Shown here in pieces: positions 1,938 through 30,000 of a DNA stretch of 64,000 nucleotides. How positions within the stretch are numbered: the stretch's first letter is position 1; each line of letters begins with the position of its first letter. The notes beneath the pieces are model-generated. The model was not told where the DNA came from. It saw only the letters and a list, made by a program, of their open reading frames with translations, and made no database searches. The position numbers and the translations under genes are program-made. The DNA is from Pestalotiopsis fici W106-1 (Eukaryota > Ascomycota > Sordariomycetes > Amphisphaeriales > Sporocadaceae). The stretch spans positions 496,001-560,000 of the forward strand of contig NW_006917098.1 of the NCBI RefSeq assembly GCF_000516985.1, given 5' to 3'.

Positions 1938-1955
1938 AAAAAAAAGGTAATATTA

Positions 1956-2736: not shown

Positions 2737-4104
2737 TTATAGTATGACTGCATCAAGGTTCAGCCCTGCAAACATCTGATACCATGACAAAACCTCGGGT
2801 CGACTGGCCCAAAGTCTGTCCAGAAACACACCAGCAGATTGAACGGAGCAGAACTTCATATCACGGTGAATTGCACTCACTAGATTTCTCACTTTGCGTC
2901 GATAGCCAAGCGACTGAACGTGGGCACCAGTAATTAGTAGTGGAAATATGACGCAGTTGAATACCATTGTGGGCTGGACCATGTCAAGAATGCAATCCAG
3001 ACAGGGAAGAACATGCTGTTGAACAAGAGGATGCAAGGTAGGTAGGCCACAGACGGCCCTTCGGAGATAGATAAGCGCCGCCAGCTGAAACGCGCGGATA
3101 AGGCTGAAGGCATTGAATATTTCAAGGCTGTTCTTCGTAGCGGTTTTGCTTCCACCTTCGTGATTGCCCAAACCTCCCGATGTCACTGGAATATAGACCG
3201 GGTCAAAGAGTGCTTCAAACTCTAAGATCCGGTCAGTGTCAGGGCCTTCTCCCTTATTAAGAAGCCCGACCTGGTATGCAATCATGCGCGATATGCCGCT
3301 GAATACGGATGCGAGAGAGGAGCGGCCCAAAGGGTCCCGACTCCACCATACACAACGCTTATCAACAGCGAGCCAAAAGGCTGGACCATACGCAGGAGAA
3401 CCGCCTTTGATCATAGTGGTGGTGAGGTCCGCAGATGCAAACTCTGAGAGAAGCATATGAAGCGGCTCAGGGCATTCGTCCAGGATAGCCTCTATGCCGC
3501 CGAGGCCTGCGATGATGGCTCTGACCCCGGCATGGTGACTTGCCGTTGAGGCCATGTCCAGCGTGCAGTCCATGTAGCCGCCGTGAAAATACAAAAAGAG
3601 CACGGCAAGCAGAAGAGACACCGGTAATCTGTCACCACTTTGGCAGTGAGTGTCCAGCTCGCCTCGAACCGCGGCAAGGCATTCAAGATGCTTCGATTTA
3701 AGCATACGACGATCATTTCTGCCGTCTTGAAGAATCCGATGGCCGTCTGAGATGACACAGATTGCAAGTAGCAGCACACGATGCTGGAGGGCCATTACGA
3801 TTGGTGGGGAGCAGGGCTCGGAGGCAGTAGTAAATAAGGGCCACAGGCGACCGTGGAAATATTCCAGAGCACGCTTCTCGTTTACCGCCAAAGAGGTCGC
3901 ATGGTAACTGCCCATGTCGTTGGCTTGGTAGACAGCAGGTATTGAGGTGGCCGCCTTGGAGTTCCATCTGATGCATTTCTCGCCATAGTCGCAGGACGCG
4001 CCAATCAGGGAGCACCGCACGCAGCCCGGTTTGCCCAGATCACATCGAATGCGACGCTTCTTGCAGGACCAGCAAGAACCGACGACCGTTCTCACTCGGA
4101 CCAT
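2737..4104 (-). CDS. Zn(II)2Cys6 transcription factor
   Basis: 455 aa in a single exon. Residues 11-38 form a textbook fungal binuclear zinc cluster with spacing CX2CX6CX6CX2CX6C (CWSC, then CDLGKPGC, VRC, SLIGASC). The basic run KKRRIR between the second and third Cys would contact DNA. The rest is a helical region typical of fungal-specific regulators, with no coiled coil obvious. It is a nuclear DNA-binding regulator of unknown target. The ATG at 4104 is the first one before the cluster and leaves the usual short N-terminus. It is transcribed away from the MOSC gene on its upstream side, with about 790 bp between the two starts, so a shared promoter region is possible. Confidence 0.88.
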   Translation of the reverse strand: MVRVRTVVGSCWSCKKRRIRCDLGKPGCVRCSLIGASCDYGEKCIRWNSKAATSIPAVYQANDMGSYHATSLAVNEKRALEYFHGRLWPLFTTASEPCSPPIVMALQHRVLLLAICVISDGHRILQDGRNDRRMLKSKHLECLAAVRGELDTHCQSGDRLPVSLLLAVLFLYFHGGYMDCTLDMASTASHHAGVRAIIAGLGGIEAILDECPEPLHMLLSEFASADLTTTMIKGGSPAYGPAFWLAVDKRCVWWSRDPLGRSSLASVFSGISRMIAYQVGLLNKGEGPDTDRILEFEALFDPVYIPVTSGGLGNHEGGSKTATKNSLEIFNAFSLIRAFQLAALIYLRRAVCGLPTLHPLVQQHVLPCLDCILDMVQPTMVFNCVIFPLLITGAHVQSLGYRRKVRNLVSAIHRDMKFCSVQSAGVFLDRLWASRPEVLSWYQMFAGLNLDAVIL

Positions 4105-6410: not shown

Positions 6411-8043
6411 TCAAGGACGGTCAATACTGCAGTCCCGTCCTCCTCCTCCGTGTCCGCCCCCGCGATCGCCATCTTTTCCACGACCACGTCCACCACGATT
6501 ACCAGATCTGGGTTGAGGATCTCGGTGCGGTCCTTGGGCTTTCCGATGGTTCCTCTCTTGAGACGTTGCATCCCAGAGATTCTTAATTTGAAGAAGCTCG
6601 CAAAACGCCACTGTTTGAGGATTTGTGTATTCCCTGGGTTGCGAATTCACTGTCTCAGGGTCTCCTGGGTTATGTGGAGGGGCAGTAAGTGTGAAGTTTT
6701 CGGGAACTGTAAGCTTGTCTTGAGCCACAATGTGCTCGTTTACCCACCTACGTTCCTTGTCGATCATCTCTGTGTAAACGTTCTCGCCTTCGTTGGCTGG
6801 CATCTTGGCGTCACGTTCCCCAATGGTGAGGTATTGGTGAAAAACTCGCGTTATTGCAAGCCACTCTGGATCGTATTCCAATATGAATTTCTTGGAGGCT
6901 GACTTTGAAGCAGCAGTAGCTGGCTTAATGTAACAGAGCTCCAAGTGCTTCTTCCCCGGCCCGCACTTATCTAAAGCCAGAAATTTTGTCTCGGTGTTGA
7001 ATATGGTTGCAGGCACAGATTGCCCGGGAATACCTGGAGAAACTGCGGATGGCGCAACGGATGACGGTTCAGTGGACACTGGCCTTGGCTTCTGTTCTGA
7101 ACTCGGCGACGCTGGCGCCATTACCTCGAACCGTTTCACGGCCGAAAACGTACAGTGCATATGGGCCGAAAACCAATACAGCGGCCGTAATCGGTCCAAA
7201 ACGTACGTGGCTGCGGGACTTCCAAGTGTCCCATCCAGGCTTCCCCGTTTGAAGAATGGCTTTATCCTCCAAAGAGCCTCTTCGTCACCGTATCGCTCGA
7301 TACCTTTCGGCCAATCGTGACTGAGACCAATGTCCACCTGCTCTCTGATAAGGAGGAGTTTGCGTACATCGAACTCGCGAACATGATAAAAGCTCTTGAT
7401 GTCATTGTGGTTGGAGTGGTTAGAGTGGTTAAAGGGTAGTCGTTCGATATGGGGTTTATTGTAATCCGGGTCGTTCCAAATGCCACTCATGCCAGCGATC
7501 CGAATAGGCCCAAAACGAAGCACATTGGCGGATCCAAGGTAGTAGATATTAGGCGCTACCCAGCCGCCATAATATAATTCCCATGAGTGTGAGCTGGCCT
7601 CGTGGTTACCTCCGATAAAGATGGTAAGAAACGGCGCTTTGGTCCGGCCGCTGTAGTATTCTGGAAAATCACCAAGCTTCCGGTACTTGATGGGAACGGA
7701 CATTACTGTAAGATCTGCTGCGTTACGCACGGCCTGAAAGTCGCCCCCAATAATCACAAGGTCCACACCATCCCAGCCTCGACTTTCTGCGGCATTCTGG
7801 ACAGACTGGTAGATTGAGTCAAGATGACCGTGTCCCTGAGAATAGACGTTAGATTTTGTTTTCCGTCAGAGTTCTAGTCCGATAAAAAGGATTCAGACGT
7901 CACGGTTGGTAGTGATGGTCATAGACACAGCGAGGCTTTGTCAAGCTCCCTAGCGCTACATGGTTGTTAAAACTTACGCAACCTTGAACAGCGACCCTGA
8001 CCCCACCAGATTCTAACAAGGACGATTGATGAAGTTCCTCCAT
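6411..8043 (-). CDS. dbr1: RNA lariat debranching enzyme Dbr1
   Basis: Exon 1 8043-7978 and exon 2 7835-6411, intron 142 nt, phase 0, 496 aa. Dbr1 cuts the 2'-5' bond of excised intron lariats in the nucleus. The metallophosphoesterase motifs are all visible: GCGHG at 21-25 (Cys replacing the usual Asp, as is normal for Dbr1), GGDFQAVRN from 52, GGNHE near 97-101, LSHDWP and SAHMH. The Dbr1-type C-terminal domain follows, then a low-complexity RG/GGG tail (about the last 45 residues) that could bind RNA. The short first exon supplies the first metal-binding motif, so the spliced model is needed for activity. It runs tail-to-tail with the MOSC gene, with 189 bp between stops. Confidence 0.93.
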
Positions 8044-11310: not shown

Positions 11311-12508
11311 TCAGACAGATAAGCATGTTCTATGGAAGTAATTATAGTCGAAAGCCTCTAAGATCCCAACCAATTGGGAGACAGTGGCGAGCACCACCAT
11401 TACATGAAAGATCTGGTGTGAGCTGCCCCATATGTTGAATTTGCCTGGATATCGACTTTCGGGAAATTTGGTCTGCAGAACTACATTAGCGATGATTAGC
11501 TGCCATATGTAGCAGGGAGTCGGAGGCTCACTGCGTAAAACAAAGTTCCGAATAACAGAAAACCTCCTTCAACAAGGTAATATGGTAGACCAGATTGTTT
11601 CACCATTTGCGACCAACCAAATATGACGATTCCATGTATCAACGGTGCGAAACCAGACGCGCCAGTCGCCACAAACGTAAGTGTCCGGAACACCCGAAAC
11701 TTTCGATGCTGAAATCTGGGATTTACCATGATCAAGATGGTAATCGTTCCAAGGACTCCAATCTGCCAACCAAAGTCAGTGCCGGGTGAGATATCCACAG
11801 GGCACATTGGATTTTACTCACCATGGACCAGTATATCTTGCGTTGCGTAGGTTCGCACCAGAAAATCACATAAATTCCCGACACAAAGTCGCCCACTGTC
11901 AAGACCATTATTCCTACCAGATCCAGCCGCAGCCAGAACTTTTCAACCTTGTTGGAGTGGTTCATCATGGTGTGGTATGTTGTCGACAGCCCCAAGCAGA
12001 TGACGGCAGTCAAGAGGAATATGGTAAATATGACATAATCAGTGGCTGTGATCCGGGAGTATTTACTTGCAAGGTACTGCAGAATGTACCACTCGCCGAG
12101 GAGAAAACCGATTCCCGGTATGAAGTGGGAAAATATATTCACCGACTCGTTGTGGAGGTAGGACCAACTGCGGAACGAGACCCGAGCCGAGCCTGAGATC
12201 GGACGGTAGCCATGACGGATATACTCGTTATCTTGGTGCCATTCTGGTAGCTCGTCAAAGGAGAGTAGAACTGGGGATGCCTTGCGCTCACTGGATGTGG
12301 TTTTTGAAAATCTCTGACGGAGAAAAGCTTTTACTGACTCTTTCGAAAAAGAATCCTTCAGCGGCTGTGGGGGCGTAACTGGAAGTCGATGAGCAGACGG
12401 TATCGCTGTCGCGTCTGGTGACAACGATGGGGTGGGGGCCAGGACTTGGAGGGGGGGAATGGATAATGAAGAAGACGGGCCTTCCATTTTCTCTTCAAGT
12501 TCCCCCAT
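11311..12508 (-). CDS. PAQR / adiponectin-receptor-like membrane protein (copy 1)
   Basis: Three exons 12508-11822, 11762-11532 and 11472-11311 with two 59-nt phase-0 introns; 359 aa. It is a seven-helix hemolysin-III/Izh family protein. Visible family motifs are LPEWHQDNEYIRHGYRP before the first helix, NESVNIFSHF, the Ser/His site STTYHTMMNHS and the last-helix SSHQIFHV. In PAQR proteins the conserved Ser, Asp and His residues bind a zinc ion and support ceramidase-like activity; in fungi these proteins affect sterol and zinc homeostasis. The first ~90 residues are a Pro/Ser-rich cytosolic tail missing from copy 2 (19551-20627). Middle-exon length (231 nt) and both intron positions match copy 2 exactly, so the genes are paralogues. 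Confidence 0.9.
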
Positions 12509-13855
12509 GGCGCATTGAACGTGCGCCGCTGGCCGTACTCTCGACGCGCGCTGGATAACAAGAGTATAACAAACGGGTTGAATCCCGCTACTGTCTCCTT
12601 AACCCCGTCTCCCTCTAGACATCAACGACAGTGGGGAGCGTCCTGGTACAGAGCCTTATGGACTCTCCGCACCACACTTCTCTGTCGGCTATTCCCCTCT
12701 GGGAGTTCCCCGCTGACGGGTTAAAAATAACCTCCACAATTGACAATATTCCACGCACACCATACGGTTTCTGGGACGCTGCGCAAGGCTCGCTGACTTG
12801 CTGAAGAGCCCCAATGAAACGGGTGGCAATGCGAGGACGTTTTCCCGTTGGTATCGAGTTAAGAGCTGACTTTAGCGCGGTGTCGCGATAGCCAGGACAG
12901 GAGATACAAGCAGGATCTGACATAAAGAGTGAAACAAAGATGGTGCTCTTCCTCGAAACTATTGTGTGTGAGAAAAAAAGAAAAAAGAAATGATAGCCCT
13001 TCCTGTTGTTTTCCGTCGTGTCACGCGAAGGGTGCCACTCCCCACGCTGCGCGTGTCAAGGGAGGATTGGTACCTAGGCATGTGAGCGGTATTGACATGT
13101 ACCTACTTTGACGCCCTCGCAACCCTTCATGTATTTCTCTGGTGGCATGATTTGCCCTTCAGACCGACAGTCCCCATTTTCATTGTCCAACAATTGCAAC
13201 TTACTTGGGAAGGCCCGGCTTGCATTGCACCCTTTTATTCGGTCGTTCCAGCAACTTATCTGATACTTGTAGATGTCCAATTGCAATGTCTACTCCAGCA
13301 TTGCTTTTTTGCCTACAGCCTGACATGCCACATCAAACAGGGGTCCTTGGGGGGTGTCGTCCCCCGGAGATTCCTTTTTCTCTTCACATGGGTACCGAGA
13401 CATGATTGATTCTATAACCACACCCCTGCGACTGTTGAGTGAAATTCAATTTCAGGGGTCGTGTTAGTCCTAGCAGGGATCTTTGAGCTTCGGTTCCGTT
13501 GCACCAAGGGTATATACTCGGGACGGATTCGGAGAATGTAGATGTAGGTACATGTACCGCGACATCCTCGTCTCAAATTGGACGAGGCGCTGACTTCTGC
13601 AGCTCGCAATTCGGAGACAGGGCTGATTCAAAGCTCTCCTTTCCCCTCGAGTTTTGGTTCACTGCTATATATTTTGGAATGGCAAATTTTCGTCTTGCTC
13701 AAGCAGCAATAATTCATGCCATGTTTCGAAGAGTCGAACTGGTCTTTACCTAGACATACAAAACTCTAGCAAGCCCTACAATAATCGTATAGAACGCGCC
13801 GGCACCGACCTTGGGCCTTTTTCTCGACGCCTATCACTAGAGCTCTATAATCTGA
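12509..13855. promoter_or_regulatory. divergent region between PAQR copy 1 and the NLR
   Basis: 1.35 kb shared upstream region. It holds TACCTAGGCA at 13071-13080, one of the recurrent TACCTAGG motifs. Frames here are short and overlapping, and none is supported as a gene. Confidence 0.45.
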
Positions 13856-16800
13856 ATGATGGCGTCCAATGAAGATTACTCTGTGGGATGGGCTTGCGCA
13901 CTACCAACAGAAGTAGAGGCAGCCAAGGCGACACTTGATCGCATTCATGATAACCTACCTCCGGATCAGTACTCAAAGGACAACAACTGCTACATTCTGG
14001 GGAGTCTCCAAGGCCACAATGTCGTTGTGGCATATCCGAAATCCGGCGTTTACGGCGAGACGTCGGTTGCAGACGTAGTCGCGCAGATGCACGCGACCTT
14101 CAAATCTATCCGGTACAGCCTCCTAGTCGGCATTGCGGGAGGAGTACCAAACACGAAGGAGGATGTTCGCCTTGGTGATGTCGTCGTCAGCAAGTCAACG
14201 GCTGGTAGGCCGGGCGTTGTCCAACTCGACTTGGGCGAGAGGAGGCGAGCTGAAGATCAGCTTGTTAGCGACAGGTCCTTGCTCCAACCAACACCATTGC
14301 TTCTCACAGCCATGGGAAAGACTGAAACAGCCACAATTTTTGAAGAAAGCAAGATATCCCGGCTCATTTCCGAGATCATGCAGAAAGATCCCGAGGCCTT
14401 TGCCCATCCAGGCCCTGAGCAAGACATCCTCTTCGAGCCGGATTATGATCATGCAGTCATTGAAACCAACGAAGACGGATGCAACCATTGCAATCCGGAC
14501 AGAATTCTACCCCGGAGACCACGAGACACTCAGGACCCCGTAGTACATTATGGTCTCATTGCTTCTGGTCGTCAATTACCGCGTCAAGCGACAAATCGAG
14601 ACAGGTTGGCGCAAAATCAAGGCGTTCTATGTTTCGATACCGAGACCAGTGGCCTAAAAGATGCCGCGCGGTATCTGGTCATCCGCGGAATCTGTGACTA
14701 TGCAGATTCGAACCGTTCAAATATTTGGCACGCATATGCAGCGGTGGTTGCTGCAGCATATGCAAAAGAGGTCTTGTCGTTCATACCCTCGGTTTCCAAG
14801 ACGATCTCGCAGCCAACAAACACCTATCCCGAAGCAGTGCCGATTCTCGATGCTTTACTATTGACTAGACCCGAAGTTGATCGAAAGTCTCTTATTGCAT
14901 TGAAGGGACACAGAGTTGACGGCACATGTGAATGGCTCATACAGCATCCCAGTTATCGAAAATGGCTAGAGGACCCCAAGCTTCCAGTCCTCTGGGTCTC
15001 AGGCGGTCCTGGAAAAGGGAAAACAATGCTAGCAATCTATATCACGGAAGCGCTACAGCCCGTGATTGACACTGCTAACGACGTTCTTCTATATTACTTT
15101 TGTTCCAACCGTGATAAGAACCGAAATTCGGCAGTGACGATAATGAGAGGCATCATCCACCAATGGATCGACCTACATCCGCATTTGGCACAGGAGATCA
15201 AAGGCGCTTTCGAGGGAACTGAAACAACTAAATACACCGTTTCGAGCTTCGTCTCATTGTGGAGAGTATTCTTGACCATGCTTCGGCAGAGTAGGTCTTC
15301 TCAGGTAGTCTGCGTCCTGGACGGTATGGATGAATGCGAAAAAGAATCGCTCAGACAGCTTCTCGATGCCGTTGGAAATCACCTGTCCAGCTCACAGGAA
15401 AGCGCAGGCCCGCGACTGAAGCTCATTGTCCTCTCTCGACCGCAGCCAGCCGTGTTGGAGAACAAGCTGGGCCAATACCAGCAGATCAAGCTGGATGACT
15501 CCAAAACCGAGACCTCGAATGATGTCGAGAGATATATCTTGGCCAAAGTCGCGGAGCTGGCGACCGAGCAAGACCTTTCAGAGGAAATGGTTGCGCGAGT
15601 TCGCCAGGCGTTGTTGGAAGGTGCTGATGGTACCTTTTTGTGGGTAGGTTTTGTTGCCAATGAGCTTCAAGGCAGGAGTTGGGGCAAAATCAATGAGGTT
15701 CTCCTTCGTGTTCCCAAAGGCCTGGGTGGAGTTTACCAGCGAATCCTTCAGCAGATTGACGACAAGGAGGCGCTGGTCCCTATCCTTCAATGGGTTGTGC
15801 TCGCGGCACGACCCCTTACAGTGGAAGAATTGACAGTCGCAACGGGGATCAAGCCGTCTGGTAATATTCCGGCGACAGAAGTGGTCAAGCGACGACTCAG
15901 ACTCGGCGGGCTACTGGTAAAGATTGAAGGAGACGTGGTGAACCTGGTCCATGAGTCAGCAAAGGAGTTCTTTCAAAGCAACCAGGTCAACATCAAAGGG
16001 ATCAACATGTTTCACATGACCCAGCACACTCACAGGGTCTTAATGCAAACCTGTCTGTTACACCTTGAACATGGATATGGCGCCTCTCGAGGGACCACGG
16101 AGAATTCTGGCCCTGATCCTTTATTGTCTTATGCCAGTCAATACTGGCCTATGCATTTCCAGCACGCTATAGGTGTGATTGATCAACAGTCCGAGTTCTC
16201 TCGCCCATTCTTCGACGTGGAATCTACCATTCGCGAAGAATGGTGGAAAGTTTATTGGGAGCTGGAAAAGAATGGGGGAAACCCGCCCTCATTCACACTC
16301 CTGCATCTCGCTGCGTACCTGGGCAATATAGAGTGGGCTAGGCTCTTGATCAGCGAGCGTTCCCGGCTCATTTCGCGCAAGGACAACTATGGTCGGACGC
16401 CGCTTTCCTGGGCTGTCAACCAAGGCCACCGCGACATGGTGGACTTGCTCCTTGACCATGGTGCTCGACTCAACTTTAAGGATCGAAGCACCCTGACGGC
16501 ACTCCATATTGCCGTTACTGGACAACACAAGGACGTCGTGGCTGTGCTGCTCGATCACGGTGCCCGTCTTGAGACCAAAACTGAGCATAATGACACGGCA
16601 CTCATTCGCGCCATTCAGGCCAATTCCAAGGAAATCGTCCAGGTGCTGCTTGAACACGGAGCTCGTGTAGACGAACTACCCACTGCGCCGGGAGTTACCC
16701 TACGAGGACCTGCAGACCCAATGGACGAGCGAGTGGAGGAGATATTGGGCCTTCAGGAACAAATATTCCTCGCGCGCTACAAGCAGGCGTCGCGCAAGGT

Positions 16801-17854
16801 CGAAATGGTCATGAAAGCCTTTAGCCTTTCCTTTCGCTTTCCCCTTATTTTCCAGCTGGTGACGCTGTATTTGAGGTCTGTGGCGTTGGGCCGTTGGGAG
16901 AACCTGTCTGTGCTCCAAGAGCTCGTGCGGGAAAACCGGACGGACGAGCTGCGACGATGGACCGAGAGACATCGCGAATTCTTTGTCCAGGTCGTCCTAT
17001 CCAGGAACCGCGGGAGGTTAAGGGCCATCTGCGAACTCCCGGAGCGGATCTTGAGCGAGGTCGCCCCCAGCGATCTTCAAGCACTGTTGGTCATCTCCGT
17101 CATGGTCGGTTCGGAAGCCAAACTTGTGGCTTGCCGCGAGGGGTGGAGAGAGGGGGATGCCATCACATCAAAGACCTTTTCCAATTTTACTGCCCTCGCC
17201 TACAACAGGGACGCGGAGGAGTTCTTGCACCAGGGCGTCCGCGATTTCTTGAATGGCTTCGACGTCAGTGTCCAAACAAGCAACCGGCAAGACAATGCAG
17301 CACGTACAATGGTGCTCTTGACGTCGCACATTGCCATGATTGAGAATCAGCAACCCAAGCCGATTGAATACTTTGCCAGGGTCATTGCAGAGTTCTTCGA
17401 AGGGTACATTGACAGCAGCTACGAGGTCGAGCTATTCAATGATGCAAATCAGGCATGCGCCAATGAGCTGAGCTTCATCGGCAAGGAAAAGGACACCAAA
17501 AGGCTTCTTCTCTTGCTGACGAGCATCGTTGAAATCGCTCAGCGTTCCCAGGAGAAGGGGCAGGACCGTTTCCTCAACATACCCTCAGTATCCTGTCTTC
17601 TTCTCTGCCAAGAGGATCCCGCCGCTCACCAATGGCTCATCGGTGAGGGCATTCCAGCGACCATGAGTGCCTTGATAGCAAAGCAAGACCCAGGACCGCT
17701 TCAGAAGCGTGCGTGCAAAACCTTTGTGGAGTGCCTAATTATTGGAAAGCAATATGGCTTGTTACTGTCCACGGGGGCACTCAAGTCTAAAGTCAAACAA
17801 AACCTGCACGCCTTGCCAGAAGTTGAAAACATGATGAATCGTATTATTGGTTAA
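13856..17854 (+). CDS. PNP-NACHT-ankyrin NOD-like receptor
   Basis: 1332 aa in a single exon. Residues ~8-305 are a nucleoside-phosphorylase-like (PNP_UDP) domain: WACALPTEVEAA, LLVGIAGGVP, and VIRGICDYADSN near the end. NACHT follows: Walker A GGPGKGKT at 383-390 and Walker B LDGMDEC at 488-494. About four ankyrin repeats lie at ~810-940 (LLHLAAYLGN, TPLSWAVNQGH, TALHIAVTGQH, TALIRAIQ). The last ~380 residues are helical and unfamiliar. Fungal NLRs of this design sense non-self and trigger regulated cell death; the PNP head is the presumed effector. Where the family usually has an EMEAAGL-like segment, this protein reads FDTETSGL, so nucleoside-binding chemistry may be altered. The frame is intact, which argues for a working gene. 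It lies 3.9 kb upstream of the protease/gasdermin pair. Confidence 0.92.
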   Translation: MMASNEDYSVGWACALPTEVEAAKATLDRIHDNLPPDQYSKDNNCYILGSLQGHNVVVAYPKSGVYGETSVADVVAQMHATFKSIRYSLLVGIAGGVPNTKEDVRLGDVVVSKSTAGRPGVVQLDLGERRRAEDQLVSDRSLLQPTPLLLTAMGKTETATIFEESKISRLISEIMQKDPEAFAHPGPEQDILFEPDYDHAVIETNEDGCNHCNPDRILPRRPRDTQDPVVHYGLIASGRQLPRQATNRDRLAQNQGVLCFDTETSGLKDAARYLVIRGICDYADSNRSNIWHAYAAVVAAAYAKEVLSFIPSVSKTISQPTNTYPEAVPILDALLLTRPEVDRKSLIALKGHRVDGTCEWLIQHPSYRKWLEDPKLPVLWVSGGPGKGKTMLAIYITEALQPVIDTANDVLLYYFCSNRDKNRNSAVTIMRGIIHQWIDLHPHLAQEIKGAFEGTETTKYTVSSFVSLWRVFLTMLRQSRSSQVVCVLDGMDECEKESLRQLLDAVGNHLSSSQESAGPRLKLIVLSRPQPAVLENKLGQYQQIKLDDSKTETSNDVERYILAKVAELATEQDLSEEMVARVRQALLEGADGTFLWVGFVANELQGRSWGKINEVLLRVPKGLGGVYQRILQQIDDKEALVPILQWVVLAARPLTVEELTVATGIKPSGNIPATEVVKRRLRLGGLLVKIEGDVVNLVHESAKEFFQSNQVNIKGINMFHMTQHTHRVLMQTCLLHLEHGYGASRGTTENSGPDPLLSYASQYWPMHFQHAIGVIDQQSEFSRPFFDVESTIREEWWKVYWELEKNGGNPPSFTLLHLAAYLGNIEWARLLISERSRLISRKDNYGRTPLSWAVNQGHRDMVDLLLDHGARLNFKDRSTLTALHIAVTGQHKDVVAVLLDHGARLETKTEHNDTALIRAIQANSKEIVQVLLEHGARVDELPTAPGVTLRGPADPMDERVEEILGLQEQIFLARYKQASRKVEMVMKAFSLSFRFPLIFQLVTLYLRSVALGRWENLSVLQELVRENRTDELRRWTERHREFFVQVVLSRNRGRLRAICELPERILSEVAPSDLQALLVISVMVGSEAKLVACREGWREGDAITSKTFSNFTALAYNRDAEEFLHQGVRDFLNGFDVSVQTSNRQDNAARTMVLLTSHIAMIENQQPKPIEYFARVIAEFFEGYIDSSYEVELFNDANQACANELSFIGKEKDTKRLLLLLTSIVEIAQRSQEKGQDRFLNIPSVSCLLLCQEDPAAHQWLIGEGIPATMSALIAKQDPGPLQKRACKTFVECLIIGKQYGLLLSTGALKSKVKQNLHALPEVENMMNRIIG

Positions 17855-19550: not shown

Positions 19551-20627
19551 CTAATTCGCGCGATCGATGCCCTTCATCTCACACACATCCAGCGTGTGGG
19601 ATGCTGTGAAACCTTGCAGCAAACCAGCCAGATGCGAGCACATTCCGCCCAAAATAGCGACATGAAAGAGCTGATGAGAACTACATAAGAGATCAAACTT
19701 GCCGGGCGCAAAACGCTCCGGAATTCGGAACTGAGGGGTTGTTAGAAATCTTGACTTTTGGGACGGAATACATGAAAGTCTAGACTTACAGCGTATAGCA
19801 TCACTCCGGAACCATAGAAAGCAATTTCTCCTAGATACCCCTTCATTCCCGCGTACTTGAGCATATATTCCAGCCCGTATCGCTGAGCTCCGTGCAGCAG
19901 AGGTATAAAGGACGAGGCGCCAAAAGCAAAGAAGGCGCCCACCTTGACTCTCCTCCAGCGTGGTGTCTTCAGCTCTGGGTTCGAGATAAGCACACCACAG
20001 GTAGTACCAAATGTCAAGTTCTGGAATTCTTGTCAGTACATCATTACATTCGTATGAGCTGTCAAGAGAAAAACTCACAATGCCCCAATGCAAGTACTGC
20101 AAGGGCTCTTCGCAGTAGAAAATATAGTTGATGCCGGAGCAGAATGTGCCCACTATGCAAATGATGATACCGAGCATGTCCATCCCGTGCCAGAACTGTT
20201 CCACGCGATGCGAGTGGCTCTGCATCAGGTGGAAAAGTGTGCTGAGGATCAGACAGATCTCCGCACACCAAAAGAAGAATCCGAACATGTTGTAGTCCAT
20301 GGCTATGACGTTGAGGAACTGAGGCTCACCAAGGTATCGCATGGTGGCAGTTGCGATAACTGGAAGAACCAGAGCACCGATCAGATGCGTGTATATATTG
20401 CAAGTTTCGTTATGGACAAAGGTTAGGCTGACGAAGATGTCCCAGTAATCCCCCTTTTCCGGCCGATAGCCACTAAGGATGAACTTGTTGTCCCATTGCC
20501 ATTCAGAAATCTCTTTACACGTCACAGTTCGCCCTTTGGCTTCTTGCTGAACTGTGTGGTTGTTTGTTGTGCTCATGTCGACTTCTGGTACCCGTCGCTG
20601 TTTGAGCTCTACTGCTGGTCCGGACAT
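19551..20627 (-). CDS. PAQR / adiponectin-receptor-like membrane protein (copy 2)
   Basis: Three exons 20627-20079, 20020-19790 and 19730-19551, with 58- and 59-nt phase-0 introns; 319 aa. Motifs parallel copy 1: SEWQWDNKFILSGYRP, NETCNIYTH, STLFHLMQSHSHRV, the third-exon RIPERFAPGKFDL and SSHQLFHV. Seven hydrophobic helices are expected; the probable location is the endoplasmic reticulum or plasma membrane. The middle exon is 231 nt, identical in length to that of copy 1. It has a shorter N-terminal tail than copy 1. One frame stays open through both introns for the whole span, so an unspliced transcript would still read through (see findings). It is transcribed divergently from the S8 protease gene. 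Confidence 0.9.
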   Translation of the reverse strand: MSGPAVELKQRRVPEVDMSTTNNHTVQQEAKGRTVTCKEISEWQWDNKFILSGYRPEKGDYWDIFVSLTFVHNETCNIYTHLIGALVLPVIATATMRYLGEPQFLNVIAMDYNMFGFFFWCAEICLILSTLFHLMQSHSHRVEQFWHGMDMLGIIICIVGTFCSGINYIFYCEEPLQYLHWGIVSFSLDSSYECNDVLTRIPELDIWYYLWCAYLEPRAEDTTLEESQGGRLLCFWRLVLYTSAARSSAIRAGIYAQVRGNEGVSRRNCFLWFRSDAIRCKSRLSCIPSQKSRFLTTPQFRIPERFAPGKFDLLCSSHQLFHVAILGGMCSHLAGLLQGFTASHTLDVCEMKGIDRAN

Positions 20628-21731
20628 GATGCCTATCTGCAGGTACTTGAGTTGAACTCAAACAAAGAAAGGGTGTTGAATTGCTGAGAACGGGAAGAGT
20701 AAAGAATAAATATGGCGAACGAGATGCAATTGAAAAGAATTCAGGTACAGATTGCAAACTCGCGGTTGGAAAGAAAAAGAACAGGTACTGCTGCTGTTGG
20801 CTGAAGGGTACAGTGTTTTGGTGGGATTGGACTCGTGCAGCACTAAATCATAGGAGCCTCATTTGCAAAGTTGATGGGATGCAGCAGTATCAAAGGACCT
20901 GCGACACTAGCAACAAGATGATTGTCGAGGTTAATACTTCGGCGCGGATGAAAAGAGGTAAAGAGAGAATGAGAGAATGAGAGAATGAGAGAACTCAAGT
21001 CGCTTATCTACGAGTAACGCGACGAGGCTGCGAAGGAGAAAAATTTCGAGGCCCAAGGCAAATGGCGATTGCCCATGTACAGTACCTTGTAGTACCTGCA
21101 CCTCTCCAATTTGGAGTGTACGACGCTGTAAATGATCCCATTAGCTGGACAAACGCAGAAGGGCTGGGCATGCATACATTCATCCCTGCGACCAATCGCC
21201 AGCAGATGGTGAGACAGATGATCCTGCCCCCTGGTTGCCCAGCTTTGGTGCAGGTATTTGGGGGTGCGCATTTTGAACAATGGCGATTCGCTCGTCTTCA
21301 GCCCAAAGACAGCAGACCACTAAACCTGCTTGCTTGACAAGAGATACAAGAGCCTTATGCTGCTGCCACTTTTGAGATGGTGGCTCAGCTTTTACAAGGA
21401 TCTGTACTGTCTGCCAGACTTGAAATGGAGGGTCGGAGGACCGAGGTTGGTGCTGTGCCGCAAATTCGAAGGTAGCTGACGGATCGTAATTTTGCTTATT
21501 TCCGGGCAAGCCACCACCAGTTCGTCTGTTCTGGGAAGGCTGCACCGCTTTGACGGTCAGCAAAGGATGATACACCATGCGACCCAAGACTTCCTGAGGT
21601 TTGGGGTGTGAATGTAGCCCAGCCTGATTTGATACTTCTGTAAATATGTATGCAGAACGCTTCCGCTCATTGCACGATGTCTTCCCGCGCCCCAGTGGAA
21701 TTTCGAAGTCTATCAGCTTTAATGCGCAATC
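20628..21731. promoter_or_regulatory. divergent promoter region, PAQR copy 2 / S8 protease
   Basis: 1.1 kb between divergent starts. A GAGAGAATGA-type tandem lies around 20964-20997. The 210-codon frame at 21180-21812 (-) runs through the protease first exon and has no domain, so it is taken as a shadow. Confidence 0.45.
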
Positions 21732-24700
21732 ATGGACGACGCTGATTCCCAAGGCTTGTTGAAATCCATGCTTGGATTCTTTGGTCGAAGGCGCCCAGAA
21801 AGGCCGGTGCATCCGGTATCACTGAAATCGCGGACGCGCGAAGCCTGGCTGCGAACGGACTCATTTCTGCAGCACGATGAATTCGACGAAATGGACCCGG
21901 AGCGCATTGCGCAAACGCTTCGCGCGCTTGAAGGTTATGTTCAAACCGACTCTGGTCTAGAATCAGATTCCGTAAGTGCTCCTGCAAACTCGAGTCTTTG
22001 ACGTTCTTCGATGTTGCAAAACGGGACGCGCTATCTGAAAACGTCTTGAAATTTGAACATAGTACAGTCTAAGACTCTAACGCGAAGTCACTGAGTAGGG
22101 TTTTGAACATGATGGGCCGTATCCGAAGCTTCAGACAGTGCGTCGCATGATTACACGGCCAAACTACGATCCGCGCGCGGACTCAGGCGTCGCCATTCGC
22201 GTTAGCAAACGGGGGCGAGAGAGCGACGATGTCATTCAACAACTTTCGCATTTGGACAGAGATGCGAAGAAGCGCCGAGTTTTGCCTCCTCGTGAAGAGC
22301 CGAGTACTGCGTCCAATCTTGAAGACCCCGATGCCGACTTTGCCGTGTCGATGAGGAGGCACTTGGTGTCCTTGGACAATGCGTTGCGAAAACACTGGGT
22401 TTGCGTTTGCCAGAAGTGCTCAGGGTTGAGCGTGAGACTGTCGCTGCCAGAGCGCAAGAAAGATTTAGGAGCGGATATGAGCTTTGAAGTATTCTTTGGC
22501 GTGCGGTCCCTACCCGCGACTGCATTGCAAGAAGCAAAAATCACGGTCAAGTGCGCTCTCGAACCTTTGTGGCATGACTCCTACTTGCTAACACTTTTGA
22601 TGCAGAGGCATGCATGATCATAGATTGAGAAGCTTATCAGAGCCGACACTTAGCAGCCCAACCGAGTTTGCCCATATATGCCAAAGCATCACAGAATCCC
22701 TCGATCAGCGGAATTGCTTGCATTTTGCTCTTGAAGGTGGAATATTTCAGAGGCTTCGCCCACAACCAAAGACCTTTGGCAGTGATCGAGTGTCTCGGAC
22801 GGTATCGTTGTCCGCTTTGTTCAACCGTCAGCAAGAATTACCCGGCGGTCGATCTGCACTGCCACTCAAGGGGAAGCGAGTATTGGCTCTTACACTGGCT
22901 ACAGCCTTGCTTCCTTTCCTGGAAACACCGTGGCTGCAACCTTCTTTCAACCACTCTAATATTCAGTTCTTTGAGCCACTCCAGGATGGAGAACTCCCCA
23001 ACATTACGAAACCTTTCCTGGCTCTGGAGCACATTCCAATCATCTCAGCCCGTAGTACCAACAATGGAGACAGTTCTCAAGCCTCTAAACACATGGTTCA
23101 TCCCAACGCCAGTGTGTTGGCGCTAGGCATACTCCTGTGTGAGCTTCATTATTGCACACCAGTGGAGCTGATGCAAAAAGACGCGACTGCGCCCAGGAAC
23201 GTCAACACTGATTACTATACCAGTCTCGACATGCTCAAGACTCTCGAACATGATGCCGGTGTGGATTACTATCTCGCTACAAAGGCATGCCTGCAGTGGG
23301 AGTACTTGCCCCCTGGACAGCATGCCGACTTTGAATCTGTGAGCGTCCAGCGGCTCTTCTATCAGAATGTTGTCAAAAGACTCGAGGCCGAGATATTCAA
23401 ATCCTGGAGTATTCGACTCGAAAACCTGGGCTCGTTCGATTCTAAACAGAATGAACTCTGCTGGGGCGATTTCGGCCGAGAAGTCGTCCGCTATCATACA
23501 GGCAAAGCCGACATCTCTGATGCAAGCAACGGAGCACGGGCAAATCCGCAGCGTTCCATGTCTGACACCGCGCCAGTGAGCTACACGTCCCTCAACTCAG
23601 ATGTGGTATTACGGATGTCGGCAGAACCATCTTCGGGATTGCACATTCATTCACACGTCGCTGAGCCTTCAGAAAACAGCTTGTACTTTTTTGATGCAAG
23701 CCACCAGACGGGTCCTGCACAAGAGTAAGGTCTTTTAAAAAAAAAAAAAAAAAAAAAGTTCCTAAGAGGTTGCTTACTGATGATGTTCTAGGAGCCCACT
23801 TTCGAAACAATGGATGGAAAGCCTTGTGTCTTCGGTTTATCGCCACGTTGTCCCTTTTGATCAACTGGAACCTGGGGCCAAACCGGTGCGAATAGCCATT
23901 TTGGACTCCGGATTTGACCCTCAAAATCCACTCCTAAGGGAAGATCGTGGACTTGACCCACGAATCAAGGATGCGCGAAGTTTTGTGAATGGGACAGAGC
24001 CACATGACACTCAAGACGAGATCGGGCACGGCACTCATGCCCTGGGTCTCTTACTGCAAGTTGCATCATGTGCTGAGATCTATGTTGCCAGAATTGCACG
24101 GCGGGAGACTTTGGATCCCAACACATACAATGACATTGCAAGGGTGATTATGTATGCCGCAGCAGACCTTTCGGACCGAGCTAATTTGTCCTGCTTTCTC
24201 TAGGCCATCAATTACGCAGTCTCTGAATGGAAAGTGGACATAATATCAATGTCATTCGGGATTCGCGAATACAATCAGCCTTTGACAACAGCCATATCTA
24301 ATGCTCTGAAGCATGAGACACTGTTATTCGCTGCGGCATCAAATGATGGAGGAAATTCGGGCAGAGCATTTCCAGCTGATTATCCCCTCGTCTTTTGTAT
24401 ACACTCAACCGATGGAAATGGCAACCCTTCCTCCTTCAACCCGACAGCGCATGACAAAGACTTCAACTTTAGCTTACTTGGAGAAAATGTCTCGTCTCAC
24501 TGGCCAACGGGTAAGAACGGCGACGGTCAACCTGTCAATATTATGTCGGGAACATCGGTCGCGACACCGATTGCTGCTGGACTGGCCGCATCAGTTCTTT
24601 CTTTTGCCCGACAGCAGGACGAGCAAGCCGGCCACGTCATTGCGGAAGCCGACAGGCTGGGACCGTGGATGAAAGATATTCATTCAATGGAATTGGTATT

Positions 24701-24830
24701 CAACAGTATGGTTCAAAAGAGGCGGGCAGGCTACGACTACATCACGCCTCATACACTTTTCGAGGGGGGTTTGTCAAGGGAGCGTGTGTATGAGAAGCTC
24801 AAGGATATGCAAAGGAAAATGTATAAATAG
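21732..24830 (+). CDS. DUF7580-like / subtilisin (S8) protease, HET-Q2 type
   Basis: Five exons (21732-21971, 22099-22550, 22606-23724, 23792-24143, 24204-24830), 929 aa; all phases close. There is no signal peptide, so the protease is probably intracellular. Residues ~80-600 resemble the fungal DUF7580 region (CVCQKCSGL..., then HPNASVLALGILLCELH, a degenerate kinase-like helix). The C-terminal subtilase keeps its triad: Asp642 in ILDSGFD, His683 in GHGTH and Ser839 in SGTSVATP. In Podospora the related S8 protease HET-Q2 cleaves and activates the gasdermin-like HET-Q1. Here a gasdermin-like gene lies tail-to-tail 84 bp downstream, so I infer it is the substrate. The intron before the protease domain contains a 21-base A run (23737-23757). 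Confidence 0.85.
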
Positions 24831-24914
24831 AATCCTAGGAATGAGTTGGCTCGATATCTAATCAGAAATGCTTAAATGTTGTCTCGGTCGTATTTCAAGA
24901 TACATTGAATACGA

Positions 24915-25745
24915 TCAAGGGCGGGCGCAATAGACATTGCCGTTCTCAGTCACATCAGAAACGGCCCGAGCAGTCTTGATATCAGCCCCATCCACGTCCT
25001 CAATCAAAACACATTCGTCATCTTCTCCCTCTCCACCAACGCCCATGAACGCGCCCTTGTTATACTCTTCAAGCTTCAGTCTTCGCCCAAACTTAAGCCT
25101 CTTCACGCGGAATGCAAATACGAATTCCGACTCGCGATTGGACTCGGTCGCGTCGTCATTTGCTCTGGTCCAGTGGCCTTTGGGTCCCAAGGTTATACCA
25201 AATGAAGGCACATCAATACCAAGATTCCCATTGACTGCCGTGCTGCGCGAAGTTGAGTATTTGATCTTGGCGCCTTGGACAAGCTTGATACCCGTGACAA
25301 GAAAGAGCGAGCTGGAGGGTGCAAACTTTTGTTTGGGTTCCCTCAGCCACGCCTGCACGGCCGGGACCTTGACGGCCTGTTCTACGTATTCTTGCGTTGG
25401 CTCAAAGGCCAACGTCGTCATGGCGTCAAAGGCGAAGACACTCGCCGTCTTGTTGGCATGATCAATGTTCAGCTCGGAACCCAGGGGCAGTCCAGCGGTG
25501 GCCAGTTGCAGAAACTGTGCATAAACACCAAACCCGAAGCTGTTTTCGGTGGAAATGGTCTTTTTCCAGTCCGTTTCCACGACGGGTGGATATGCATCAG
25601 CCACGGCGACGACGTTCCCTCTATTCAGAGGGAATTGTGGTGCGGAAGTGGAGCGGATTATAGATCCAAGACAAAGCGGGCCCGTTGGTGGTGGATGTAT
25701 AAAATCAGATGTCGGGCAGAGGAAATACAGCTTTGTAAAAGACAT
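24915..25745 (-). CDS. fungal gasdermin-like pore-forming protein, HET-Q1/RCD-1 type
   Basis: 276 aa, no intron, no signal peptide. The opening (CPTSDFI, then a PPPTGPLCLGSIIRS segment) matches my memory of fungal gasdermin-like proteins of the RCD-1/HET-Q1 group. In the family, the N-terminal part forms membrane pores and kills the cell after proteolytic release of a short C-terminal piece. The last ~43 residues, after a KGAF motif ending at Phe233, are acidic and different in character, fitting a removable tail. The start at 25745 is preferred over an in-frame ATG 11 codons upstream because that stretch is only Lys-rich UTR-like sequence. The frame is intact. Convergence with the S8 protease gene leaves 84 bp between stops, so the 3' UTRs probably overlap. 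The family call is from recognition, not a search. Confidence 0.78.
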   Translation of the reverse strand: MSFTKLYFLCPTSDFIHPPPTGPLCLGSIIRSTSAPQFPLNRGNVVAVADAYPPVVETDWKKTISTENSFGFGVYAQFLQLATAGLPLGSELNIDHANKTASVFAFDAMTTLAFEPTQEYVEQAVKVPAVQAWLREPKQKFAPSSSLFLVTGIKLVQGAKIKYSTSRSTAVNGNLGIDVPSFGITLGPKGHWTRANDDATESNRESEFVFAFRVKRLKFGRRLKLEEYNKGAFMGVGGEGEDDECVLIEDVDGADIKTARAVSDVTENGNVYCARP

Positions 25746-26476
25746 GGCTTGGGGCGTCTGGATTTTTTTTTTTTTCAATAAACGAGAGAAATGGTTGACG
25801 AATGATTATTTTCTAAAAGAAGAGAGCTTGTAATACATGCCTCAATTCTGTGAGAACTTGTTACGAAACATGGCCAAGAAAGCAGACCGCAGAGACGAGG
25901 CTGCGCCCATTGGCATTTGGTTAGGGCACCCGGATTGCGGCAGGCGGTCCCAATTGATCTAATCTAGGACTTTAGGATTCCCAACTGTCTGATACTACAT
26001 ATGCAGTGCATGAATGGATTCCATGCACCCGAGTGGGTGTGGTGCAACACCATGATCAACGCCCACGGCTGGTGTCCAGATAGAAAATATTGCAGGGACT
26101 CCCAAAGTACCTACTAGCCAAGCGCCAGGCCCCGGGTGCCAACGAAGCTACTGGGAACTAGCCTAGTGCAGCCGCCGATCGCTAGCGGTTAGCACATTTT
26201 ATACCCATATCTCACCTCATATACCCCCGTACTTGAACCCTACTAAGTACTGGTGAGAAGGTTGAGGCTGGGCATAAACCCGCGATTCGGCAATCCAAGA
26301 CACAGGGCGTCTTGACATTACCCGATACTTTTGAAGTTCGCGCGACAGTTATCATAGACTTTAGAACGCTGTGTCGACACGAAGAAACTAGGAACGGCTT
26401 CCTGGATCTTGGCCCTCGTTCAGAAGCACTGGACCTGCCGACCGCCGTATCGCACCTGCTTTCTCTCTCTGTCTCC
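25746..26476. promoter_or_regulatory. divergent promoter region, gasdermin / ankyrin gene
   Basis: 731 bp between divergent start codons. A T13-type run sits close to the gasdermin start. No coding frame is supported; the open frame that begins at 26312 is an upstream extension of the ankyrin gene without an ATG. Confidence 0.5.
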
Positions 26477-29400
26477 ATGGAAAGTCTCGATCGCGCGCGA
26501 GACGAGTCGATGGACGATGTCTTCCTCCAAGATGATCTCAGCCAAACCATCGCAGAACACGCAACACGATGCCAGTCGCTATTTCACAAGTACATGGTCA
26601 GGCCAGAAATCGTGCCAGATCCTACCATCATGGATGACCAGCTGGCACGCTTTTCTCTGTGGGCATCAAACATGGATGTCTACGGGCCACTCAATGTTTC
26701 GCTGGACTACCGACTCCGATTCAGCCCCACGGCTGCGGAAATCATACATCAGCTCCTTGATATTATTTGTGATACCTTGACGTCTTGTAAGTATTTTCTG
26801 TGTCAAATTCGGGGAGATTGAACGTGAAGGCTAATACGAGTATATCGACCACAGTAAAGCCAATTGACCACCGCCCACCGCCACAAACTACAAGCAGGAA
26901 GAGACAACGCATTTCCGCACATGGAGACTCCGAAGTAATGAGGAGGGGCGACGATGATGCAAGCGATTCGGACAGTGACGTCGACTCAGCAGAAGGAAAC
27001 ATTTTGAAGATTACCGAGACAATTGGCGGGACATTGACCCGGCTCTTTCGTCTGTCCAACGCTGTGCGCAAGTCGGCCAAAGCCAACCGAGCCCGCAAGA
27101 TTGAAAGATACCAAGGCGACAAGGAATCAAACGATGCCATAGCCGAGCTTCGTATCTACACTGAATGCTATATTCGTTTCCGATTTCCTGAGGCACCGGA
27201 TGCGCTTCGCCTGGCATTGGTAGAAGCCAATGCGCTGCGACTCCGACGGCTTCATTATCAGCGTTCCCATCGGAGGCGCATCGAGTTGAGCATTCAGACC
27301 CCGCAATCTACGCCGGCCGTGGTTCAACTCCCCAAGATGACGCCAGCTGCACCGACTGTTCGTTTTGCTCCGGGCCCCGCGGTGCCAAAGTCTACGACCA
27401 CCAGCAAAATGTTGCGGCCTGCGCCGGTTCCAGCAACGAATGCAACCACTGCCCGACAAACTGCTGTGCAAGCCTTTTATGCCAAATCCACAACTGAGGT
27501 TCCGCGGGCGAAATCTGCTCTCGTGAACAATAATTTATCGTTCCCTCCTATGCCTCCAACAAAACAGTGTCCATACTGCGGCGTCATTGTCGAGTTCAAC
27601 AACACCAAAAGGCCATTGCTGTGGCAGTAAGCAGATCGGTGTTATCTTTTTGTGGGGATATGCCGGCTAACATATACTAGAAATCATGTCATTGGAGACC
27701 TGGAGCCATTCATTTGTGTTTTTTCACAATGCTTGGTAGAAAGTCAGAACGGTACCAGTCCGCTCACATTCGAAACGTCAAAAGCTTGGTCGAGCCATAT
27801 GCAGACTGCTCACGGACATACGTGGGAGTGCAGGGCTCCTTCACACGACCCAATGGTCTTTGATCAAGAGACTCACTACCAGGAACATTCTATTCAGGAG
27901 CACGGCGTGCCAGAGGCGTACGCTAGGACTCTCAGCAGTGCTGCCCGAAGACGAACCCATGAAAAGATACTGGAGTGTCCATTCGGCGACGATTTCCAGT
28001 CCTCAGAAAATACTGAATACAGTACCGTCTTCTCGAGCGATGCTCTTCAGGTGCACGTGGCCGCTCACATGAAAGAAATCGCACTGCTTACACTGCAGAA
28101 GCTTCCCGGGGATGGCGATGAAGATACGGACGACTTCAAGAGTGACCAAGTGGATGATGATGGGCCGGGACTTGGAATTACACGTGACTCCATGGACAGC
28201 CTGCTAGGCGACGAAGACCTAGACTTCTCGGACGACGCTACTATGGCTTCAGATAGCAGTATGAGTCACGACGATGAAGGCAGCTCGGAGATGACGAAGC
28301 TTCACTTTGCCGTGCACGATGGCAATCTGCCCTTGGTTGAGTCCTTGGTCCGTGAGGGTGCCAGCTTGAGCAACCGAGACAGTGCCGGCAGGACAGCGTT
28401 GCATGTCGCTGTCATGAAAAAGTCCCATGACCAAGCTATAATGGACTTGCTCCTGAGCGCCGGCGGCAAAGACCTCGTAAATTTAGGTGATGAAAACCGC
28501 CAAACAGCCCTGCATTACGCAGCAGAAAGAGGCCTCATCGAGACCATAAACATTTTAGTCAGCCATGGTGCAGACACAGGTACCACTGACAACTTCGGGT
28601 TTTCTCCATTTCTTTGGGCTGTGGTCGCTGGACAAGTAGGCGTCACTGAAAAGCTGTTAATTTTGGGCGCCAATGTCAACTCATTCAGCGCAGATGGGAA
28701 GTCTGCTCTCGCTTGGGCCGCCGGTCTGGGGTATGATGGGATGACCCTTTTGCTCTTGGGCCATGGTTTCAGCGCCAGGACTTCTCAGATCCAAAGTGTG
28801 TCGTTGCTGCCTTTGGGGGAAGCATCAGCTTTTGGCAACCATATTATTGTAAGAGCCATCCTCGATTCTGGTGCAAATCCAAACGATCGTGATCGTGATG
28901 GTTGGTCTGCCATACACTGGGCAGCAGAAGAAGGCCATTTAAACATTGTGGGTTTATTATTGAACAAAGGAGCCAATGTCAATGCTGTTAGCTCCTATGG
29001 CACATCACCATTGCACTGCGCCGCAAACGGAGGACATGATTCCATTGTGAATCTCCTCCTTCAATCAGGAGCCGACCCGCTCAAGTCGACATGTCACGGG
29101 TGGACTGCACTGCATCACGCAGCCTTTATGGGCCACTCTCGCGTTGTCCAGTCCCTCCTACAATACGACGGCATTAGATCCAGTGCCTCGCAGCAGGATA
29201 ACCATGGTTGGTCTGCTCTCCATTTGGCCATCCATAGTCGAGACACGGATACTATCCATCTCTTACTTGACAGGTCTATCATTGCAGAACCCCAGACCTT
29301 GTTCGATGAGAGTGGCCTTACTGCGGAAGAATGGTTAGATTTTGGACCCATCAGCCGCTCCCAGAAAGCGCGAGCAACGGGTAACTTGGCTTTTAGCAAG

Positions 29401-30000
29401 TCACGCTGTTGCAGGGCAGTGACAGGATTGCGACGAGCCGTTACCAATGGCACGGGCAACATTCCAATGATCAAACTATTCTTGACATTGGGTCATGATA
29501 TTAACGGCACAGATTCCGGAAGAAGGACGGCGCTCTACTACGCTGTAAAGAGACGCATGCTTCCTGTAATAGACCTCCTTCTCAGCATGGATGCAGATCC
29601 CAACATTCTCCCAGTAGGGCGCAGAACGTGGGAAGAGTTCATCTCAGACGCGGAGGTTTTACTACGACTCAACCGAGCAGGCTATCAAACTCAGGATGCC
29701 GATCCGGAGATAGAGCACCAAATCAGACTCGCATTTGGACCGCATAGGCGTCCGTCTATGCCGGATCCATCGGTCTCTTTTGAAAGTGAGGAGCCACTCT
29801 CTCGAACGAGCACTCAATTGCCGATCCGATCTGTATCGTTTCCATCCGTCACGCCTTCCTCAACGCCACCTTTACCAGGCCATTCGGCTTCAAATACACC
29901 CACTCTCTCACCTGCATCTGCGCAACAGACGAATGACAACAAGCGCAAAGCGAGTTCAGGGAGCTGGTGGAGAAGGGCTTTTAGAACTTCGAGCAAGTAG
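26477..30000 (+). CDS. zinc-finger and ankyrin-repeat protein
   Basis: Three exons 26477-26786, 26855-27626 and 27681-30000 give 1133 aa; phases close. The N-terminal ~100 residues are a helical domain of the kind found at the head of fungal NLR-like proteins (CQSLFHKYM, LARFSLWASNM). A Ser/Asp-rich linker and a basic region follow. Next comes a Cys/His segment with CPYCG, ICVFSQC, WSSHMQTAH and WECRAPSH, resembling tandem C2H2-type fingers. About ten ankyrin repeats follow (TALHVAV, TALHYAAERG, SAIHWAAEEGH, SPLHCAANGGH, TALHHAAFMGH). The tail is Ser/Pro-rich and ends in SWWRRAFRTSSK. There is no NACHT or other nucleotide-binding site. It shares a 731-bp promoter region with the gasdermin gene, so co-regulation is likely; the function is otherwise unknown. 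The first in-frame ATG after a stop-free lead is at 26477. Confidence 0.82.

Follow-up and report, generated by a model that had tools for sequence, protein, structure and literature searches.

Fungal gasdermins and their partner proteases

According to the sections on gasdermin gene clusters in three reviews, about 80% of the gasdermin genes of fungi share a cluster with a protease gene and about 60% with a gene for an S8 protease, and the het-Q1/het-Q2 idiomorphs of Podospora anserina probably descended from a pre-existing pathway (PMC10197012, PMC12881547, PMC10989679). HET-Q1 is reported as a protein of 278 amino acids (aa) that is cut at F238 and loses 40 residues, and HET-Q2 as a protein of 388 aa (PMC10989679). 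RCD-1 of Neurospora crassa is described as requiring another allele, rather than a protease, for its activation (PMC10197012, PMC12881547, PMC10989679). The 2025 review asks for work on the regulation of gasdermin-activating proteases (PMC12881547). Here we analysed a 64,000-nucleotide stretch of the genome of Pestalotiopsis fici W106-1 (hereafter the window), which encodes an S8 subtilase with a DUF7580 front and, tail to tail with it, a gasdermin. We consider it likely that the two genes form an intact gasdermin cassette, composed of a pseudokinase-gated sensor-protease and a latent pore former, which has been passed repeatedly between the classes of Pezizomycotina. It is a known kind of arrangement in an unusual version, being probably pseudokinase-gated, strongly conserved, patchy and, apparently, mobile. 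To the original prediction, sequence comparisons add the probable kinase-like nature of DUF7580, a conserved candidate cleavage Phe in the gasdermin, a Phe-Phe-Asp island in the protease and the cross-class similarity of both proteins.

The gasdermin-protease gene pair of P. fici

P. fici is a tea-dwelling fungus, and the window sits on contig C8 of its genome (51.7 Mb, 20 contigs). The relatives referred to as listed are the best 120 of 307 gasdermins and the best 120 of 126 Q2-like proteases passing the threshold. The pair consists of the following features:

21732..24830, plus strand: Q2-like (Q2L) protease gene PFICI_10858, five exons, 929 aa; the joined exons give the deposited protein, with Pfam DUF7580 and S8 matches
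21732..22323, plus strand: N-terminal region, residues about 1-155, encoded by exon 1 together with part of exon 2; helical in a low-confidence model and little conserved
22327..23503, plus strand: DUF7580 region, residues about 157-530, putative degenerate protein-kinase-like (pseudokinase) domain, with the intron 22551-22605 inside
23678..23707, plus strand: island SLYFFDASHQ of the linker, residues 589-598, which may be a substrate-mimic latch or a site of autoprocessing
23723..24827, plus strand: S8 subtilase region carrying the triad D642, H683 and S839, residues about 604-929, with the introns 23725-23791 and 24144-24203 inside
24831..24914, no strand: interval of 84 bp between the convergent stop codons
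24915-25745, minus strand: gene of the fungal gasdermin in one exon, encoding 276 aa and ending in TGA, with an RCD-1 match and a gasdermin fold
25047..25049, minus strand: codon of Phe233, the candidate P1 residue for cleavage of the gasdermin, Phe in 118 of the 120 listed rows, followed by 43 residues

The protease exons (21732-21971, 22099-22550, 22606-23724, 23792-24143 and 24204-24830, plus strand) are separated by introns of 127, 55, 67 and 60 bp, all four with GT..AG borders, and their translation is letter-identical to the deposited PFICI_10858, that is, in agreement with the deposited gene model. The original prediction, made from the sequence alone, was therefore right about the coordinates of an intact subtilase, its joined exons and the numbering of Asp642, His683 and Ser839, as it was about the tail-to-tail order, the 84 bp between the stop codons and the 276 aa of the neighbouring protein. 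A decayed gene is ruled out, since the model equals the deposited protein and the reading frames are open. The front, predicted to be DUF7580-like, matched PF24476 at residues 164-494 (E = 2.7e-29), and Peptidase_S8 matched residues 636-857 (E = 1.8e-23); these are the sole Pfam matches of the protein at E ≤ 10, neither NACHT nor NB-ARC being found among them. Both the structure model and its structural neighbours display the subtilase fold, and the triad is near invariant in the relatives (D in 100, H in 99 and S in 88 of 106 core rows, where the non-matches are mostly gaps from truncated gene models). We refer to this protease as Q2L, as it is an S8 protease with a complete triad whose gene lies less than 10 kb from a gasdermin gene.

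The 276-aa protein is a fungal gasdermin of the RCD-1/HET-Q1 type, as had been proposed. With phmmer it matched N. crassa RCD-1-2 (8jyz_B, E = 2.6e-11) and RCD-1-1 (E = 7.8e-10), a profile comparison with RCD-1 gave E = 8.3e-12, and Foldseek placed the RCD-1 pore first (E = 7.9e-11), followed by animal and bacterial gasdermins; RCD-1, which has the gasdermin fold in common, is thus the closest solved relative, and the predicted N-domain fold was recovered. The low confidence of the gasdermin model (predicted local distance difference test, pLDDT, 57) weighs against the structural part of this evidence. A Pfam scan of the protein found no family at E ≤ 10. PF26164 stands in the precomputed annotation of some gasdermin relatives, three of which matched nothing at E ≤ 10 when rescanned.

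In 118 of the 120 listed gasdermin rows, the P. fici protein included, a KGAF motif ends at the Phe233 position, the exceptions being one Leu and one Val. By sequence, this residue appears to correspond to the cleavage residue reported for HET-Q1, and we regard it as a candidate site that would leave a 43-residue tail. In the same-genome paralogues, compared by eye, the region reads RGAFLHGDD (L019), KGALLD (L016), EAALLHGDD (L017), KGATFGLD (L021), HRATFEVG (L022) and RGKLGS (L018), so that most of them have a hydrophobic residue at the candidate cleavage position, which need not be Phe.

Co-occurrence of gasdermin and protease genes

A genome-wide protein search located six gasdermin loci in P. 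fici, the one in the window among them, and at all six a subtilase gene lies less than 4 kb away. A profile search of 18 stretches, selected because they surround S8 genes or the six gasdermin loci, added a seventh locus (L019), again beside a subtilase; seven is thus a lower bound. The two genes are arranged tail to tail at four of these loci and in tandem at three. At 6 of the 7, DUF7580 precedes S8 in the same orientation, and none was detected at L022. L017 and L019 have both domains in a single open frame, and we infer their fusion at L016, L018 and L021. One DUF7580-S8 gene (L020) speaks against a strict pairing, as a gasdermin was undetected in the 8.5 kb read there. Among the 120 listed protease relatives, 115 carry PF24476 in their precomputed annotation. 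Moreover, both genes occur on a same-sized contig, and hence as linked cases, in at least 28 species. This figure counts linked cases and is not a frequency; it comes from 30 species pairs matched by eye on species and contig size, with Metarhizium anisopliae and Trichoderma virens left out because of different assemblies and Aspergillus wentii and Zymoseptoria tritici kept despite them.

Coexistence of both partners in one genome is therefore ordinary, and it is the alternatives of the HET-Q1/HET-Q2 kind that are derived and exceptional; any novelty of coexistence is ruled out by the other loci of this genome and by the cluster surveys in the reviews (PMC10197012, PMC12881547, PMC10989679). 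The original prediction had argued from coexistence that the protease must be held in check. Restraint is still the likeliest state of the protease, but an emphasis on coexistence as unusual does not stand, given the roughly 80% of clustered genes in those surveys and the six of six loci in P. fici.

The same comparisons bear on a reading of the locus as a het pair like HET-Q1/HET-Q2, an allorecognition system whose partners would be carried as alternatives by different strains and be united by fusion. The two protein families are the same, the gasdermins are similar in length (276 and 278 aa), and each has a Phe at the candidate or reported cleavage position (F233 and F238, respectively). In P. 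anserina, however, the partners are idiomorphs, while here they are adjacent genes of one genome rather than alternatives at one locus, and HET-Q2 has 388 aa, in contrast to the 929-aa protease of P. fici. The strong conservation of the cassette would also be unlike that of diversifying het loci. We consider a het pair very improbable. Among the closest known counterparts are the reviewed two-gene clusters of a fungal gasdermin and a Q2-like S8 protease, in which, as predicted here, a short-tailed gasdermin is combined with an adjacent multidomain S8 protease; the fronts named in the corresponding sections are ANK, TPR, WD40 and NLR (NOD-like receptor), whereas the front here is DUF7580, a putative degenerate kinase (PMC10197012, PMC12881547, PMC10989679).

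DUF7580 as a probable degenerate kinase-like domain

Two loci, L046 and L047, encode a true kinase domain followed in the same frame by a degenerate kinase-like domain, that is, a tandem kinase-pseudokinase. Their second domains match PF24476 (7.7e-11 and 2.7e-7), and within that match lies another one to Pkinase (0.039 and 1.2e-5). In hhalign comparisons, DUF7580 aligned with these bridge domains at 1.5e-8 and the bridges aligned with nine kinases of the P. fici genome at 2.6e-13 (three more kinases were left out because of stops). The direct comparison of DUF7580 with the kinases gave 0.0019 with an alignment of 52 relatives (A2) and 4e-4 with a wider alignment, the kinase register being kept. 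As controls, S8 gave 0.19 against DUF7580 and 0.34 against the bridges, and reversed kinases gave 0.51 and 0.68. The 52 proteins of A2 were picked largely since both Pfam domains were listed for them, and the 52 of 52 with both domains is therefore no rate. Through this transitive profile link, a kinase-like ancestry of DUF7580 can be traced, and we place the domain, on sequence profiles, as a probable relative within the kinase superfamily. In our own reading, the protease model also seems to have its strands and helices in an order that agrees with that of a kinase.

Several observations point the other way. The direct DUF7580-kinase match is modest and is to be read beside the S8-kinase control at 0.074; Pfam kinase families found zero direct matches to DUF7580 in the 52 relatives, and a forced global alignment of DUF7580 with the kinases gave no match (0.92). 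The bridge domain of L046 matched kinases of the PDB weakly (best 0.0038), with nanobodies at 0.03. No significant kinase appeared among the best 50 rows of Foldseek or of VIA, which were filled by subtilases, and in a viral structure library a kinase came at rank 13 with a non-significant E = 0.18.

Placed by the wider DUF7580-kinase profile alignment, the catalytic loop corresponds to WLQPSFNHSN in P. fici, where Ser takes the place of the HRD Asp; across the 106 core rows this position holds S in 88 and T in 10. The DFG motif is not kept in DUF7580 by the same placement, and the region reads KPFLALEH. Because the HRD Asp is replaced and DFG is not kept, we call the domain a putative pseudokinase. 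The legend of a figure in the 2025 review names "other predicted kinase-like domains" fused to such proteases, with DUF7580 unnamed in it, and a kinase-like front is thus not new as an idea (PMC12881547). We found neither DUF7580 named as kinase-like nor a paper on DUF7580 in the open-access literature.

Bacterial gasdermin-protease defence systems have a pore former and a neighbouring protease in common with the P. fici cassette; the PADLOC models matched the gasdermin weakly (bGSDM, E = 4.3e-4) and the protease at E = 6.4e-8 (subtilase), and the sequences are very distant. To our knowledge, no kinase-like front is known in the bacterial systems. A pseudokinase that controls a membrane-killing module, as proposed here, is described for MLKL (PMC12881547). 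Unlike in MLKL, the putative pseudokinase of P. fici is fused to a protease, and it is this protease that is predicted to act on a separate pore former.

The linker island and a proposed mechanism

Conservation of the protease protein is highest in DUF7580, with a median identity to P. fici of 75% (n = 98), compared with 68% for S8 (n = 87), 54% for the linker (n = 97) and 53% for the N-terminal region (n = 94). Within the variable linker stands the island SLYFFDASHQ, in which F593 is kept in 100 and D594 and A595 in all of 101 rows with letters; in 14 remote relatives the D is kept in 8 and the F in 6. Structural alignments of the protease model to unprocessed pro-Tk-subtilisin start at model residue 589-590, equivalent to chain residue 64-65. 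The latter lies in the propeptide, whose end leads into the active-site cleft. The model thus suggests that the Phe-Phe-Asp island may be a substrate-mimic latch or an autoprocessing site, with a Phe preference shared with the gasdermin site; the low confidence of the model at the island (pLDDT about 59) weighs against this. An S8 fragment released after Phe593 would have 336 aa, a size close to the 388 aa of HET-Q2. If this reading is right, a freed half resembling HET-Q2 would fit the published view, as outlined in one of the reviews, that het-Q1/het-Q2 arose after a rearrangement that left a constitutively active sensor (PMC10197012).

We propose that, in the resting state, the C-terminal tail of about 43 residues would keep the gasdermin latent, while the pseudokinase and the linker would hold the S8 protease off, perhaps with the Phe-Phe-Asp segment lying in the cleft like the end of a propeptide. 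A cue sensed by the pseudokinase half would release the protease, which could then cut the gasdermin after Phe233, and the N-terminal part of the gasdermin would make membrane pores and kill the cell. One conserved architecture would thereby bring together a gate formed by the pseudokinase and putative sites of latching and cleavage, making the regulation of the protease directly testable in yeast.

Evolutionary history of the cassette

Over 30 species the Q2L and gasdermin distance matrices agree (Mantel r = 0.76, with 0 of 9999 permutations as high), and both genes appear to travel together among the relatives. Species were placed in classes and orders by general taxonomic knowledge. In the gasdermin tree (57 of the 120 listed rows, with unnamed rows and many congeners left out and a bootstrap that had not settled), single clades of Sordariomycetes, Eurotiomycetes and Dothideomycetes were rejected by the approximately unbiased (AU) test (p = 0.0005, 1.7e-10 and 0.0003, respectively). 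Aspergillus wentii, Hypoxylon NC1633 and Kalmusia, which belong to three classes, are united with strong support in both gene trees, and Annulohypoxylon is placed among Trichoderma in the Q2L tree with moderate support. Both trees are thus incongruent with the classes. Identity tells the same: ten chosen species of four classes, drawn from the short-branched part of one lineage, share 85-93% of Q2L residues whatever their class, and the gasdermins of seven chosen species of three classes are 84-93% identical. Periconia and Pyrenula, of different classes, are 93% identical in Q2L, while Periconia and Pyrenophora, of the same order, are 88% identical. On average, identity within classes hardly differs from that between them (0.762 and 0.756 for the gasdermin, 0.691 and 0.683 for Q2L). 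As a control we used the lariat debranching enzyme DBR1, whose identities of 63-74% between Hypocreales genera and 78-84% within Trichoderma are both below the cross-class Q2L values; the control rows are all Sordariomycetes, and the copy in the window is a diverged second one, so the other P. fici copy was also used. Cross-class identity of Q2L above that of DBR1 even within Trichoderma, taken with the class incongruence, favours horizontal transfer, which we infer to be the best reading of the similarity.

Vertical inheritance of a highly conserved ancient cassette, perhaps in the form of two or three old paralogues, followed by a great many losses and involving no horizontal transfer, is a reading that we think rather unlikely. 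It would be in line with more than one copy under one species name in Xylaria scruposa, Fusarium oxysporum and F. mundagurra (possibly separate strains), and with the partial taxonomic clustering retained in both trees, where class changes number 15 against 22.5 in shuffled gasdermin trees and 20 against 34.6 in the 89-row Q2L tree (89 of the 106 core rows, by a quick method). Longer branches occur in the same lineage (Zymoseptoria, Sarocladium and Emericellopsis), and these, like the dependence of the transfer reading on protein trees and one control gene, count against transfer. A vertical history is also in line with the base composition of the cassette, which is ordinary for the window, a foreign one being ruled out (GC content at third codon positions 0.52 in Q2L and 0.56 in the gasdermin, 0.51-0.62 in seven other window genes). 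What a purely vertical history accommodates poorly is identity independent of relationship, near-equal means within and between classes, Annulohypoxylon inside Trichoderma, and a linker and N-terminal region that are just moderately conserved.

For the P. fici copy itself the signal of transfer is weaker. Between P. fici and Seiridium the cassette diverges about as much as DBR1 does (Q2L 85%, gasdermin 83%, DBR1 81%), which likewise fits vertical inheritance, and against the main lineage Q2L is 72-75% and the gasdermin 76-81% identical; this copy may have descended vertically since the split from Seiridium. Among the named rows of the matches listed for both genes we found no copies from Neopestalotiopsis or from other Pestalotiopsis, for both of which DBR1 entries exist. 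The distribution of the cassette looks patchy, and database gaps and unnamed rows may contribute to this. Starship cargo was ruled out for the pair, as the DUF3435 captain has three matches in the genome and zero on the contig of the window.

Horizontal transfer between classes is our preferred explanation. We put forward more tentatively, as possible rather than probable, the full form of a mobile immune cassette, in which the pseudokinase-gated subtilase and the gasdermin would have moved together through the Sordario-, Eurotio-, Dothideo-, Leotio- and Lecanoromycetes, with 85-93% identity retained over four classes by one lineage, and in which Phe-Phe-Asp would serve as a substrate-mimic latch with autocleavage after Phe593. 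No title or abstract among the open-access matches listed dealt with horizontal transfer of fungal gasdermins. If it is true that the cassette moves between fungal classes, fungal cell-death immunity shares the mobile character of bacterial defence systems.

Neighbouring genes

Two genes near the pair could be considered as its sensors:

13856-17851, plus strand: NLR gene with the order PNP_UDP, NACHT, winged helix and ankyrin by Pfam; intact frame of 1332 codons, about 4 kb from the cassette
26237..29997, plus strand: ankyrin-repeat gene divergent from the gasdermin, from three open frames and Pfam; extent approximate

The original prediction left the restraint of the protease to DUF7580 or to a nearby receptor, and of these DUF7580 is the best candidate regulator. 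That the sensor is instead the NLR or the ankyrin gene, with DUF7580 a mere scaffold, we judge improbable. Such a reading draws on an intact PNP-NACHT-ankyrin gene so close by and on the ankyrin gene beside the gasdermin. DUF7580, however, accompanies the protease at most loci of this genome and in nearly all listed relatives (6 of 7 and 115 of 120, as above), and the unit found linked in the other species compared is a two-gene pair.

The NLR gene is flanked by HlyIII family matches at 11735-12598 and 19554-20657, both on the minus strand. The diverged second DBR1 copy, PFICI_10853, lies at 6414-7865 (minus strand); it is 69% identical to the other copy, PFICI_03366, and, among the matches listed, closest to Neopestalotiopsis and Pestalotiopsis entries. 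The start of the window (1-4000) is AT-rich, with a GC content of 0.349 compared with about 0.50 elsewhere.

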